A DNA stretch of 64,000 nt from Streptomyces sp. col6 (GTDB lineage Bacteria; Actinomycetota; Actinomycetes; Streptomycetales; Streptomycetaceae). Each line of letters opens with the position of its first letter. Within the stretch, counting starts at the first letter, position 1. The DNA lies in contig NZ_RDBL01000013.1 of assembly GCF_008042035.1 (NCBI RefSeq), positions 1,306,962 to 1,370,961 on the forward strand, written 5' to 3'. Below the pieces are notes generated by a model that was not told the origin of the DNA, did no database searches, and saw only the letters and a program-made list of their open reading frames with translations. Both the position numbers and the translations under genes were made by a program. Positions 20,302-24,578 of the stretch are shown here, in pieces.

Positions 20302-20862
20302 ATGAGTGTTCGGGTCACGCTCGTCGCCGCCGCGCGCGGCTCCGCCCTGCTCGCCGAGCGTTTCGACGACGACCGGCCGCTCGACGAGGCCGGCTGGCAC
20401 GCCGTCTCGTTCGCCGCCCCGGCCCTGGTGCCCCTGGGCGCCGCCGAACTGCGCTACTGCTCACCGACCCCGCGCAGCCGTGCCACCGGCGACGCGCTCG
20501 GCTTCCACCCGCTGGTCCAGCCGGCCCTGCGCGACTGCGACATGGGCCGCTGGCGGGGTCATACCCTCGCCGAGGTCACCGCCCGCGAACCGGCGGCCGT
20601 GGACGCCTGGCTGGCGGACCCGCGCTCCGCGCCGCACGGCGGTGAACCGCTGCTCGCCTTCATCTCCCGGATAGGCGGCTGGCTGGACACCCGCCCCGCC
20701 TGCGACGGCGCGATCGTCGCCGTCGCCGAGCCCGCCGTCGTCCGGGCCGCCCTCGTCTACGCGCTGAAGGCCCCGCCGTCCTCGTACTGGAACGTCGACG
20801 TCAGCCCGCTCGCCGCCGTCACCCTCACCGGCCTGCCACGCCGCTGGAGCCTGCGCCTGTAG
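20302..20862 (+). CDS. Histidine-phosphatase-fold protein lacking catalytic histidines
   Basis: 186 residues. The fold is recognisable from DCDMGRWRGHTLAEV and the overall phosphoglycerate-mutase-like pattern, but the signature L-x-RHG is replaced by LVAAARGSALL, and the second catalytic His (usually in THGG) is replaced in VAVAEPAVVRAALVY. Both phosphoryl-transfer histidines are thus absent. It is most likely a pseudophosphatase with a binding or regulatory role. It follows the MocR gene by 54 nt and its 3' end overlaps the convergent MMPL gene by about 38 nt. Confidence 0.75.
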   Translation: MSVRVTLVAAARGSALLAERFDDDRPLDEAGWHAVSFAAPALVPLGAAELRYCSPTPRSRATGDALGFHPLVQPALRDCDMGRWRGHTLAEVTAREPAAVDAWLADPRSAPHGGEPLLAFISRIGGWLDTRPACDGAIVAVAEPAVVRAALVYALKAPPSSYWNVDVSPLAAVTLTGLPRRWSLRL

Positions 20863-23080
20863 CCGGGGGCGGCCCGGACGGTGCCTCGCCCTCGGTGTCG
20901 ATGTGCGGCAGCGCCCGGTCCAGCCACCGGGGCGCCCACCACGCCGCGCGGCCGAGCAGCGTCATCACCGCGGGGACCAGGAGCAGCCGTACGACGGTGG
21001 CGTCGATGAGCACGCTGACCGCGAGCCCGAGGCCGAGCATCTTGACCACGATGTCGTCGCTGAGGATGAACGCCGCGAAGACGCTGACCATGATGAGCGC
21101 GGCGCAGGTGATGACCCGGGCCGTGATCTCCAGACCGTGGGCGACGGCGCCCCTGCTGTCCCGGGTGCGCAGCCATGCCTCGTGCACCCGGGAGATCAGG
21201 AAGACCTCGTAGTCCATGCTCAGCCCGAAGACGATGGCGAACATCATCATCGGCACATAGCTCTCGATGGGCACCGTCCCGGAGACACCCAGCGAGGGAC
21301 CGCCCCAGCCCCACTGGAAGACGGCCACCACCACCCCGTACGAGGCGGCGATCGAGAGCAGGTTGAGGACGGCGGCCTTCACCGCGACCAGCACACCGCG
21401 GAAGACGATCAGGATGATGAGGAAGGCGAGGCCCACCACGACGGCGATGATCTCGGGCAGCCGGGCGGCGATGATCGCCAGGAAGTCCTCCTGGGCGGCG
21501 GTCGTCCCGGTCACATAGCCGGTGGCCTTCGTGCCCGACACGCCCTCGGGCAGCACGTCGTCCTTGAGGCGCTTGAACAGGTCCGTCGTCCCCGCGTCCT
21601 GCGGGGCGTCCTTCGACACGGCGGTCCCGACGAGCAGCGCGTCGTCGCCCGTCGGCTGCAGCGCGCTGACGCTCGCCGCGCCGGGCACGTCCGTGAGCGC
21701 CTTCTGCAGGTCGGACGCGAGCGCCGAGCGGTCCGAGTCCGGCACCGACCGCTGGTCGACGACCAGGGTGAAGGGCCCGTTGGCGCCGGGTCCGAAGGCG
21801 GTGGAGATCAGGTCGAACGCGCGCCGGTCGGTGAAGCTCGTCGGATCGGCCCCGTCGTCGATGTGCCCGAGCCTGATGGAGAACAGCGGGACCGCGAGGA
21901 CACCCACCACGACCACCCCGGCGAGCAGGAACCACCACGGTCGCCGTTCCACCCGCCGGGCGTAGCGGTGCCAGCCGCCCTGCTGCTCCACGCCGGCCCC
22001 GGCCCCTCCCTCGGCGACCGGCGGCCGGACGCGGAAGCGGTCGATCCGCCGGCCGACGAGCCCCAGCAGGGCGGGCACCAGGGTGAGCGCGCCGAGGACC
22101 GCGGTGACCACGGTCACCGCGGCGGCGGCCCCCAGCTTGCCGATGAAGGACACCCGCGAGACGTAGAGCCCGGCGAGCGCGACGACGACCGTGCAGCCGG
22201 ACACCAGCACGGCGCGCCCGCTGGTGGCCACCGCCCGGCCGGCCGCCCGTACGGGGTCGTCGCCGTCCATGACGAGCTGGCGGTGGCGGGTGATCAGGAA
22301 GAGCGCGTAGTCGATGCCGACGCCGAGCCCGATCATGGTGGCCAGCGTGGGCGAGACGCTGGCGAAGGTGGTGAGCGCGGCCAGCAGCCCCAGGCAGCTC
22401 ACCCCCACGATCACCGCGATCAGCGCGGTGACCAGCGGCAGGCCCGCGGCGATGACGCTCCCGAAGCCGATGAGCAGGACGATCACCGCGACCGCGAAGC
22501 CGATGGCCTCGCTGGTGAAGTCCTTGGTCTCGGGCCGGGCGAGCTCGCCCAGCGGACCCCCGTACTCCACCTGTACCCCGGCGCTGCGCAGCGGCTTCAC
22601 CGCCGTGTCGACCTGGTCGAGGTAGGAGTCGTCCAGCGAGGTCGGGTTCACGTCGAACCGTACGGTGATGTACGCCGTCTTCCCGTCCTTCGACAGCGAG
22701 GTGGACGTGGCGGAGGACGACGAGGGCAGGGGGTTCTGGGCGGACAGGACGTGCGGCAGCTTCTCCAGGTTCCCCACCACCTGGTCGACCTGGCCGCTCA
22801 CATCGGTCAGCGGCTTCTGCGCGTCGTGCAGGACCACCTGGGCACCGGTGCCGCCCGCCGCCGGGTCGTGCGCCCGCAGCAGGTCGGCACCGGTGCTGGA
22901 CTGCGTACCCGACAGATCGAAGTCGTCGGAGTACGTGCCTCCGAAGGCGCTCTGCAGGACGTGCAGCCCGCCCAGCGCCAGCAGCCACAGGACGAGGACC
23001 ACCACGCAGTGGCGGGCGCACCACTCACCGAGCCGCAGCAGCCGTCCGCGCCGCTGTGCCCTTGCCGTATACGTACTCAC
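20825..23080 (-). CDS. MMPL/RND-type membrane transporter
   Basis: 751 residues with two repeats, each a lone helix, a large periplasm-facing loop and a bundle of five or six helices. The first bundle begins near FTSEAIGFAVAVIVLLIGFG, with the characteristic MIGLGVGIDYALFLI; the second begins near FLAIIAARLPEIIAVVVGLA, with FAIVFGLSMDYEVFLISR. These GxGxDY motifs carry the proton-relay aspartates. Actinobacterial MMPL proteins export lipids, glycolipids or drugs using proton motive force; substrate unknown. No adjacent lipid synthesis genes were found. Confidence 0.9.
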   Translation of the reverse strand: MSTYTARAQRRGRLLRLGEWCARHCVVVLVLWLLALGGLHVLQSAFGGTYSDDFDLSGTQSSTGADLLRAHDPAAGGTGAQVVLHDAQKPLTDVSGQVDQVVGNLEKLPHVLSAQNPLPSSSSATSTSLSKDGKTAYITVRFDVNPTSLDDSYLDQVDTAVKPLRSAGVQVEYGGPLGELARPETKDFTSEAIGFAVAVIVLLIGFGSVIAAGLPLVTALIAVIVGVSCLGLLAALTTFASVSPTLATMIGLGVGIDYALFLITRHRQLVMDGDDPVRAAGRAVATSGRAVLVSGCTVVVALAGLYVSRVSFIGKLGAAAAVTVVTAVLGALTLVPALLGLVGRRIDRFRVRPPVAEGGAGAGVEQQGGWHRYARRVERRPWWFLLAGVVVVGVLAVPLFSIRLGHIDDGADPTSFTDRRAFDLISTAFGPGANGPFTLVVDQRSVPDSDRSALASDLQKALTDVPGAASVSALQPTGDDALLVGTAVSKDAPQDAGTTDLFKRLKDDVLPEGVSGTKATGYVTGTTAAQEDFLAIIAARLPEIIAVVVGLAFLIILIVFRGVLVAVKAAVLNLLSIAASYGVVVAVFQWGWGGPSLGVSGTVPIESYVPMMMFAIVFGLSMDYEVFLISRVHEAWLRTRDSRGAVAHGLEITARVITCAALIMVSVFAAFILSDDIVVKMLGLGLAVSVLIDATVVRLLLVPAVMTLLGRAAWWAPRWLDRALPHIDTEGEAPSGPPPATGAGSSGVAGR

Positions 23081-23158: not shown

Positions 23159-23932
23159 TCACCCCTCCTGCGCGGTGCCCTCCTCGGGCTTGGACGCCCC
23201 CTGTCCGGCGGTGAGGATCGAGAGCGCCTCGGCGATGGCCTGTTCGGCGGCGGCCTTGTCGATGCCGAGTCCGCTGAGCACGCCGGAGCCGTCCTCGTGC
23301 TCCAGCAGGGCGAGCAGGATGTGCTCGGTGCCGATGTAGTTGTGCCCCATCCGCAGGGCCTCGCGGAAGGTGAGCTCCAGCACCTTGCGCGCGCCGGCGT
23401 CGTACGGGATCAGCTCGGGGATCTCGCCGTCGGTGGCCGGAGGCAGCGCCGCGCCGGCCGCCTGCCGGACGGTGTCCAGGGCCACTCCCTGTGCCTTGAT
23501 GAACGCCGCCGCCAGCCCCTCGGGCTCGCCGATCAGGCCGAGGACCAGGTGGTCCGGGCCGATCTCGGCGTTGCCGGCCGCCCGTGCCTCGTTCTGGGCC
23601 GCCATCACCACGTTCTTGGCGCGCTGGGTGAAGCGGCCGAACCCCTGGCTCGGGTCGAGGTCGGTGCCCTCGCCGGGGGCCTTGGCGACGAACCGCTTCT
23701 GGGCGGCCTGCCGGGTGACGCCCATGCTCCTGCCGATGTCGGTCCAGGAAGCGCCGGAGCGGCGCGCCTGGTCGACGAAGTGGCCGATCAGGTGGTCGGC
23801 GACGTCGCCGAGGTGGTCGGCGGCGATGACGGCGTCCTGGAGCTGTTCGAGGGCGTCGGAGTGGACCTTCTTGATGGCGTCGATCAGGTCGTCGAGGCGG
23901 ACGGGGTGCGTCGGAACTACGGGTTGCGTCAT
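23159..23932 (-). CDS. HTH and ClpN-repeat protein, probable autoregulator
   Basis: 257 residues. Residues ~61-82 (ASWTDIGRSMGVTRQAAQKR) read as a helix-turn-helix. Residues ~100-245 are two Clp N-terminal repeats (FTQRAKNVVMAAQNEA ... IGPDHLVLGLIGE; then FREALRMGHNYIGTEHILLALL), the substrate/adaptor domain of ClpA/ClpC. No AAA+ ATPase domain is present. Its own promoter carries two perfect TGTCAAC-N5-GTTGACA palindromes, so it may be a DNA-binding autoregulator that couples to ClpP proteolysis. The fold assignment is solid; the regulatory role is inference. Confidence 0.85.
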   Translation of the reverse strand: MTQPVVPTHPVRLDDLIDAIKKVHSDALEQLQDAVIAADHLGDVADHLIGHFVDQARRSGASWTDIGRSMGVTRQAAQKRFVAKAPGEGTDLDPSQGFGRFTQRAKNVVMAAQNEARAAGNAEIGPDHLVLGLIGEPEGLAAAFIKAQGVALDTVRQAAGAALPPATDGEIPELIPYDAGARKVLELTFREALRMGHNYIGTEHILLALLEHEDGSGVLSGLGIDKAAAEQAIAEALSILTAGQGASKPEEGTAQEG

Positions 23933-23933
23933 G

Positions 23934-23952
23934 TGTCAACCGTAAGTTGACA
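23934..23952. promoter_or_regulatory. Perfect palindromic operator 1, HTH-ClpN promoter
   Basis: TGTCAAC-CGTAA-GTTGACA. It covers the -10 box and transcription start region, ending 1 nt before the ATG. Confidence 0.7.
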
Positions 23953-23967
23953 GTGGCGAGGTGTCAA
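23939..23967 (-). promoter_or_regulatory. HTH-ClpN gene promoter, leaderless
   Basis: On the minus strand TTGACA (complement of 23962-23967), spacer of exactly 17 nt, TACGGT (complement of 23939-23944), then 6 nt to the ATG at 23932. A near-consensus housekeeping promoter giving a leaderless mRNA; both operators overlap it. Confidence 0.7.
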
Positions 23968-23980
23968 CTATCGGTTGACA
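23962..23980. promoter_or_regulatory. Perfect palindromic operator 2, HTH-ClpN promoter
   Basis: TGTCAAC-TATCG-GTTGACA, same arms as operator 1 with a different spacer, centres 28 bp apart. It contains the -35 box. Identical arms with divergent spacers argue for selection on protein binding. Confidence 0.7.
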
Positions 23981-24008
23981 GTTCGAGGGGTGTGCGCCCG
24001 GATAACGA

Positions 24009-24047
24009 GAACGCGCCGCCCGACGGGATACGTCGGGCGGCGCGTTC
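24009..24047. terminator. Cyclophilin gene terminator
   Basis: Perfect 17-bp stem (arms 24009-24025 and 24031-24047, loop GGATA) 33 nt after the cyclophilin stop on the minus strand. Confidence 0.8.
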
Positions 24048-24080
24048 GGTCAGCCGTGGGCTGCGTGCCGGGGTCCGGGG

Positions 24081-24578
24081 TCAGAGGATCCCGGAGTCGG
24101 CGATGGTGACCTTCGCCTTGGTGCGGCCGCTCTGCGAGCCGAGGGACTCGATCCGCTTGACCAGGACCATGCTGTCCTCGTCGGCGACCTCGCCGAAGAC
24201 GACGTGCTTGCCGTCCAGCCAGGACGTCACGATGGTCGTGATGAAGAACTGCGAACCGTTCGAGTTCGGGCCGGCGTTGGCCATGGAGAGCAGGCCGGGC
24301 TTGGTGTGCGCCAGCTTGAAGTTCTCGTCGGCGAACTTCTCGCCGTAGATGCTCTTGCCGCCGGTGCCGTCACCGCGCGTGAAGTCGCCGCCCTGGAGCA
24401 TGAACGCCGGGATGACCCGGTGGAAGGAGGAGCCCTTGTAGCCGTAGCCGTTCTGGCCGGTCGCCAGCTGGCGGAAGTTCTCGGCGGTCTTGGGAACGAT
24501 GTCGTCGAACAGATTGAACACGATCCGCCCGGCGGGCTCGTCGTTGATGGTGATGTCGAAGAAAACCTGGCTCGTCAT
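24081..24578 (-). CDS. Cyclophilin-type peptidyl-prolyl cis-trans isomerase
   Basis: 165 residues, single-domain cytosolic cyclophilin without signal peptide. Active-site and cyclosporin-binding signatures are present: [18 protein letters not shown] (Arg and Phe of the catalytic site), NGSQFFITT and [12 protein letters not shown] (Trp and His). Catalyses prolyl bond isomerisation in folding. Length and sequence fit the small Streptomyces cytosolic cyclophilin (CypA/PpiA type). Monocistronic with its own terminator. Confidence 0.95.

Follow-up and report, generated by a model that had tools for sequence, protein, structure and literature searches.

Judged by its sequence, the 257-residue protein encoded by clpC2 on the minus strand of the Streptomyces sp. 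col6 DNA analysed here (64,000 nucleotides, hereafter the window) is an orthologue of the mycobacterial regulator ClpC2, and the two perfect palindromes in front of its gene are very probably the sites of its self-repression. The whole reading—a clpC2 gene of a Streptomyces-type actinomycete with two predicted autorepressor sites, each bound by a dimer through an N-terminal HTH and vacated when a ligand settles on the Clp_N domains—is put forward with high confidence. The locus is a new member of the ClpC2 system described in mycobacteria, and the HTH label is already in print; what is new is the evidence for the N-terminal HTH as the operator reader and the connection with proteins of the RheA and ClpX-zinc-finger types.

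A pattern scan of the window returned both TGTCAAC-N5-GTTGACA palindromes with all 14 arm bases matching, the proximal one, TGTCAACCGTAAGTTGACA, at 23934-23952 (centre 23943) and the distal one, TGTCAACTATCGGTTGACA, at 23962-23980 (centre 23971), 28 bp apart from centre to centre. Re-read on the minus strand, the distal operator covers a putative -35 element, TTGACA (23962-23967), and the proximal one a putative -10 element, TACGGT (23939-23944), both recognised by their consensus; the order is TTGACA (23967-23962), 17 nt, TACGGT (23944-23939), 6 nt and the ATG (23932-23930), the start codon lying 1 nt beyond the proximal palindrome. This is the arrangement that the initial annotation had given. 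Since only 6 nt separate the -10 from the ATG, the promoter would be leaderless, a clpC2 transcript starting at the A of the ATG being the natural reading of the layout. A generic promoter scan of the clpC2 upstream region found no sigma-70 site, because TACGGT makes a poor sigma-70 -10, and a terminator scan of the same region was likewise empty. Concerning the neighbourhood, the two adjacent genes scanned encode a cyclophilin-type protein (24081-24578, minus strand) and an MMPL-family protein, with no divergent hsp18 among these two. The MMPL-family gene (20825-23080) lies 78 nt after clpC2 on the same strand. A GC-rich inverted repeat at 24005-24050, between the cyclophilin-type gene and clpC2, looks terminator-like by eye and is absent from the terminator scan.

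The gene itself (23159-23932, minus strand, 257 codons plus stop) was identified from domain and structure matches. At an E-value of 0.001, Pfam assigned two Clp_N stretches and no other family, with no AAA+ ATPase, in agreement with the two ClpN repeats and missing ATPase of the initial annotation. The double Clp_N receptor domain, delimited by Pfam and PDB matches, spans codons 98-238 (23219-23641, minus strand); the best PDB matches are the C-terminal domains of ClpC2 (9p2p, 8ad9, 8b9o), and residues 1-72 match the ClpC2 N-terminal domain 8ada with an E-value of 1.3e-31. In its own genome the only full-length match is the gene itself, the next one being an 871-aa reading frame of ClpC type with 45% identity over residues 97-253. 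The HTH, WTDIGRSMGVTRQAAQKRF, would occupy codons 63-81 (23690-23746, minus strand) with a recognition helix at about 74-81; it had been proposed earlier and is well supported by conservation, the structural model and its likeness to RheA-type proteins, and none of the Pfam HTH models reaches the cut-off with the ClpC2 protein.

The conservation of the operator was followed in a set combining the best 80 of 547 confirmed relatives with 30 further loci, the window included; the 110 rows correspond to 109 distinct loci, L011 and L112 being the same gene, and the figures describe close relatives, as the loci were chosen as best relatives. Counting a site at a minimum of 11 of the 14 arm bases, at least one operator site was present in 109/109 distinct loci and at least two in 104/109; the motif is thus retained near the orthologues, where its absence would have spoken against the initial annotation. 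The last two sites are spaced by 28 bp in 71 rows and by 29 bp in 34. Between the last site and the start codon chosen by the script, the distance is 1 nt in 94 loci and 2 nt in 11, the site lying elsewhere in four of the 109. Positions 4-6 of the half-site are C, A and A in all 430 ClpC2 half-sites. Among Clp_N proteins that have the HTH and are more distantly related, 10 of 11 carry a GTCAA-type palindrome near the start, none being seen there in the eleventh (L121). It should be added that the stretch examined for a Clp_N-type protein of the own genome (L005), in which no such HTH is apparent by eye, contains no operator-type site.

In mycobacteria, autorepression, operator binding and release by cyclomarin have been demonstrated by others. 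As set out in the portion of Taylor et al. (2023; PMC10030653) considered here, ClpC2 acts as a repressor of clpC2, binds CGTCAAC-n5-GTTGACG located 1-2 nt before this gene (EMSA and reporter data) and is released from this operator by cyclomarin A; a second operator copy lies upstream, over the -35/-10, in many organisms, and the promoter is taken to be probably leaderless. The window operator fits the common form [CT]GTCAAC-N5-GTTGAC[GA] over the -35/-10, with the start codon 1-2 nt downstream. Mycobacterial ClpC2 (Rv2667 and its M. smegmatis orthologue) thus resembles the window gene in domain layout, i.e. two Clp_N repeats without an ATPase, in the sequence and place of the tandem operator and in the leaderless promoter, whereas the outermost operator base is C in mycobacteria and T in the window and at many further Streptomyces loci. 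The earlier idea of a DNA-binding, Clp-linked autoregulator consequently appears sound in substance, such a system having been published, and fails as a new architecture; the accompanying statement that no description of this architecture as a regulator was known is wrong, because the same paper describes the protein, the operator, the tandem layout and the autorepression in mycobacteria.

Transferred to the window, a ClpC2 dimer would bind each 19-bp palindrome through its N-terminal HTH, block the -35 and -10 elements and so keep expression low. A ligand entering the C-terminal Clp_N receptor—cyclomarin A in mycobacteria, possibly also unfolded protein—would make ClpC2 leave the operator and expression rise, the additional Clp_N domains then soaking up the ligand and shielding ClpC1. 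As to the ligand, F98 of the window protein stands at the cyclomarin-contact position F96 of ClpC2, whereas the cyclomarin-contact residue Phe172 of M. tuberculosis ClpC2 corresponds to Tyr177, so that the ligand of the window protein may be something other than cyclomarin. Among 48 aligned orthologues, 27 have Tyr and 21 have Phe at this position; a regular expression applied to the 110 rows gave 33 Phe and 32 Tyr, with 45 rows unmatched. The ClpC of the own genome has Phe at the place like residue 177. According to the part of a 2026 paper considered (PMC12913811), a cyclomarin induces ClpC2, and ecumicin and ilamycin analogues do not, which bears out the earlier work.

The present reading departs from the published one in the DNA reader. 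Taylor et al. (PMC10030653), in the sections covered, assign recognition to the C-terminal Clp domain, namely to a helix with R185 and R189, and leave dimerisation to the N-terminal domain, while the comparison made here suggests that the N-terminal HTH, and not the Clp_N arginines, reads the operator. The published assignment has experiments on its side: the R185A/R189A variant binds DNA less well, and cyclomarin sits next to the same helix and inhibits DNA binding. The equivalent residues of the window protein, R190 and R194, are kept in 48/48 and 47/48 orthologues, respectively. Against it stands that the R185 position is also kept in ClpC1, which according to the same source has little specificity for the clpC2 operator, and that the crystallised N-terminal domain, visible over residues 4-72 after proteolysis, does not include the recognition helix, its chain stopping at V72 directly before TRQAAQKRF. 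In M. smegmatis, the equivalent of R185A/R189A gave a 2.0-fold derepression and the dimer mutant R57A a 4.6-fold one (PMC10030653, in the part covered); the larger effect of R57A is accounted for by the loss of the dimer and says nothing about which domain reads the DNA. The same source reports that high-affinity binding requires the dimer, as supported by a C-terminal-domain variant. In the present alignment, D46 and R57 of the dimer interface do not vary among the 51 sequences. The effect of the arginine double mutant could be indirect or mark an added contact.

Several features of the N-terminal segment point to the HTH instead. In the 51 N-terminal sequences, 30 of the 40 invariant columns fall within residues 45-82, those at 75-82 being invariant throughout, and the full-length model (pLDDT 83, pTM 0.72) places helices at 44-58, 63-70 and 74-81; counting against the HTH claim, the model of the N-terminal domain alone is poor (pLDDT 65), and a fold search with it returned no match. 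The term HTH has no occurrence in Taylor et al. 2023. A 2026 paper (PMC13284704), in the portion considered, describes a relationship of the antitoxin RelI with ClpC2 "within an HTH domain region" and reports HTH domains of the RelI/ClpC2 type fused also to DUF3887 and DUF2812; RelI (Rv2664) is related to the ClpC2 N-terminal domain with the HTH segment included, and, unlike ClpC2, it neutralises the RelS toxin, with no evidence of DNA binding presented in that portion, a further point against the HTH claim.

The weightier argument comes from proteins that carry the same kind of HTH without any Clp_N and face near-identical operators, i.e. the RheA-type proteins, the ClpX-zinc-finger/HTH proteins and the short protein of L180; with these, the assignment of the operator to the Clp_N domains seems unlikely. 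Sixty-one loci were sampled for further HTH open reading frames, 13 of which yielded no HTH by regular expression and were excluded from the counts; a GTCA-type palindrome was found upstream in 20 of the remaining 48, compared with about 7% of random stretches from the same loci. Among the 41 lacking Clp_N, 14 have the palindrome and 27 do not; these 27, like the Clp_N protein L121, count against the HTH claim. Together with the places of TGTCA-N9-TGACA in the whole genome and the site-free L005, the Clp_N-less proteins on near-identical sites tie the operator type to the HTH; the operator would thus go with the HTH, although a comparison of this kind leaves the contact itself unproven.

One group among them combines the ClpX zinc-binding domain PF06689 (E-values between 1e-17 and 6e-16 for the four proteins scanned) with a ClpC2-type HTH (RQSAWERF). 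It was found at eight loci (L202; L203, 722-1087; L213; L254, 2501-2872; L255; L256; L257; L258), all eight genes having at their front a GTCAGG-N5-CCTGAC site with 6 or 7 of 7 arm matches; the site is a perfect TGTCAGG-N5-CCTGACA in 6/8, and at least two sites are present in 5/8, the nearer one of L255 overlapping the only start codon found by the script. The ClpX C4-type zinc finger protein (WP_327166968.1, at L254, and relatives) resembles ClpC2 in its HTH type, its unfoldase receptor domain and the upstream palindromes and differs from it in that the ClpX zinc-binding domain replaces Clp_N, the half-site is TGTCAGG and the protein is rare and scattered, with a putative function. By full-length match it occurs in 3/396 genomes of the phylum sample; it was also found in 2/251 of the family of G377 and 1/24 of the family of G382 (the same genomes again), in 3/295 of the own-genus sample and in two records of the plasmid collection, one gene being located on a Streptomyces plasmid. 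No paper on this protein was found in the open literature (subscription papers, preprints and supplements aside).

Another Clp_N-less protein, of 93 aa and without a Pfam match (L180), is preceded by TGTAAAG-N5-CTTGACA and TGTCAAG-N5-CTTTACA, 28 bp apart, with a GTG 1 nt behind, and L177 has a pair of sites similar to this tandem. The two loci, L180 (1042-1320, 1372-1836) and L177, come from two genomes and hold short HTH proteins with a divergent gene that looks similar by eye and has no Pfam match. An imperfect GGTCAAG-N5-GTTGACC was also noticed upstream of a MADHATH-type Streptomyces HTH protein in 6 of 12 loci (L124, L130, L133, L135, L214, L216). A strict one-residue code between recognition helix and operator finds no support, RQSAW going with GG and RQAAW of L187 with AG.

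Concerning the third type, RheA is reportedly, after Servant and colleagues in 2000, the repressor of hsp18 in Streptomyces, and we take it to have the operator TGTCATC-N5-GATGACA and a divergent hsp18. A search of the own genome with the N-terminal 98 residues of ClpC2 led to four places, i.e. ClpC2 itself, two proteins of contig C20 and another on C5; both C20 proteins are positioned head to head with Hsp20 genes, and the first matches the ClpC2 HTH with 41% identity over 37 residues. A Streptomyces plasmid encodes a relative that likewise stands opposite an Hsp20 gene and is recorded as HSP18 transcriptional regulator, and the C20 proteins and their relatives are here taken as RheA-type repressors. 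The two C20 proteins have no Pfam match, and NCBIfam gave nothing for one and an irrelevant match (E-value 0.012) for the other. A set of 13 RheA-type proteins matches ClpC2 at the profile level with an E-value of 2.5e-8; the match is short (37-48 residues), which counts against the HTH claim. In the own genome the two head-to-head Hsp20/RheA-type pairs lie within 5 kb (L116, 4812-9567), with an open reading frame between them that is presumably HtpG-like. Among the RheA-type relatives in 40 plasmid records, 25 are named 'type III effector protein', which looks like a misannotation, and five 'HSP18 transcriptional regulator'.

The RheA-type set holds 41 rows for 39 places (L136 repeats L116 and L153 repeats L132), drawn from the 30 best of the 107 genomes with a match and from a number of further loci. 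A TGTCATC-N5-GATGACA site with at least 12 of 14 bases is present at 39/39 places and perfect at 34; a divergent Hsp20 gene lies within 700 nt at 35/39, the exceptions being L139-L142. RheA, following the part of PMC11754652 considered, is like ClpC2 an autorepressor with a homologous HTH segment and a 7-5-7 palindrome with a TGTCA core, and differs from it by the absence of Clp_N, an HTH turn longer by one residue, the half-site TGTCATC and control of a divergent Hsp20 gene. Because the RheA-type site is only one base per half-site away, the clpC2 sites might serve a different repressor, such as the own genome's RheA-type proteins, clpC2 then belonging to an hsp18-type regulon. This is improbable, since the two half-sites are kept apart, position 6 being A throughout the ClpC2 half-sites; in the RheA rows no listed site fits TGTCAAC more closely than TGTCATC, one site in each of two rows scoring equally with both; and RheA-type genes occur in only 107 of the 199 sampled genomes of the genus. 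The window locus is not RheA-like, its half-site being TGTCAAC and the HTH alone being common to both.

In the 7.86 Mb of the genome, the search for the 19-bp motif that the initial annotation had proposed found the two exact copies in front of clpC2 and no third. The looser TGTCA-N9-TGACA has three matches, namely the two operators of clpC2 and a single site at a rheA/hsp18 pair, compared with one match when the pattern is reversed as a control; it misses a weaker site at the second rheA-type pair. With up to three mismatches, the genome contains 73 matches to the forward and 39 to the reversed pattern. Apart from the RheA-type site, five places have two mismatches, each within at least one stop-to-stop frame (141 to 533 codons, GC3 0.81 to 0.96), which suggests coding sequence; a wider ClpC2 regulon was accordingly set aside for the matches listed. 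In the window, up to three mismatches gave two matches, both with none, while shuffled sequences had a mean of 0.85 and reached two in 21 of 100 shuffles, a control that taken alone says little about chance; the exact pattern has 14 fixed bases, for which about 0.0002 occurrences per 64 kb would be expected at equal base use. That the palindromes are a product of chance or part of a terminator with no operator role, as the shuffles and the empty sigma-70 scan might allow, is hardly credible in view of their near-fixed place before the orthologues in all distinct loci and the equally empty terminator scan.

Beyond the ClpC2 system itself, the proteins compared may represent one small HTH reading TGTCAnn-N5-nnTGACA that was joined separately to the ClpC receptor, the ClpX receptor and the heat sensor RheA, each giving a self-repressor that would report the load of a protein-quality-control machine, with the last two half-site bases (AC, GG, TC, AG) changing from branch to branch in step with the recognition helix and with the DNA reading of ClpC2 residing in the HTH, not in Clp_N; we give this wider proposal an even chance. 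No paper treating both RheA and ClpC2 was found in the open literature, leaving aside subscription papers, preprints and supplements. In mycobacteria, ClpC2 protects ClpC1 against at least one antibiotic lead, cyclomarin, so which domain reads the DNA matters for how the ligand brings about release. The comparison, moreover, connects ClpC2 with RheA, a repressor with a temperature mechanism called obscure in the part of PMC11754652 considered, and points to a ClpX-domain counterpart of ClpC2.
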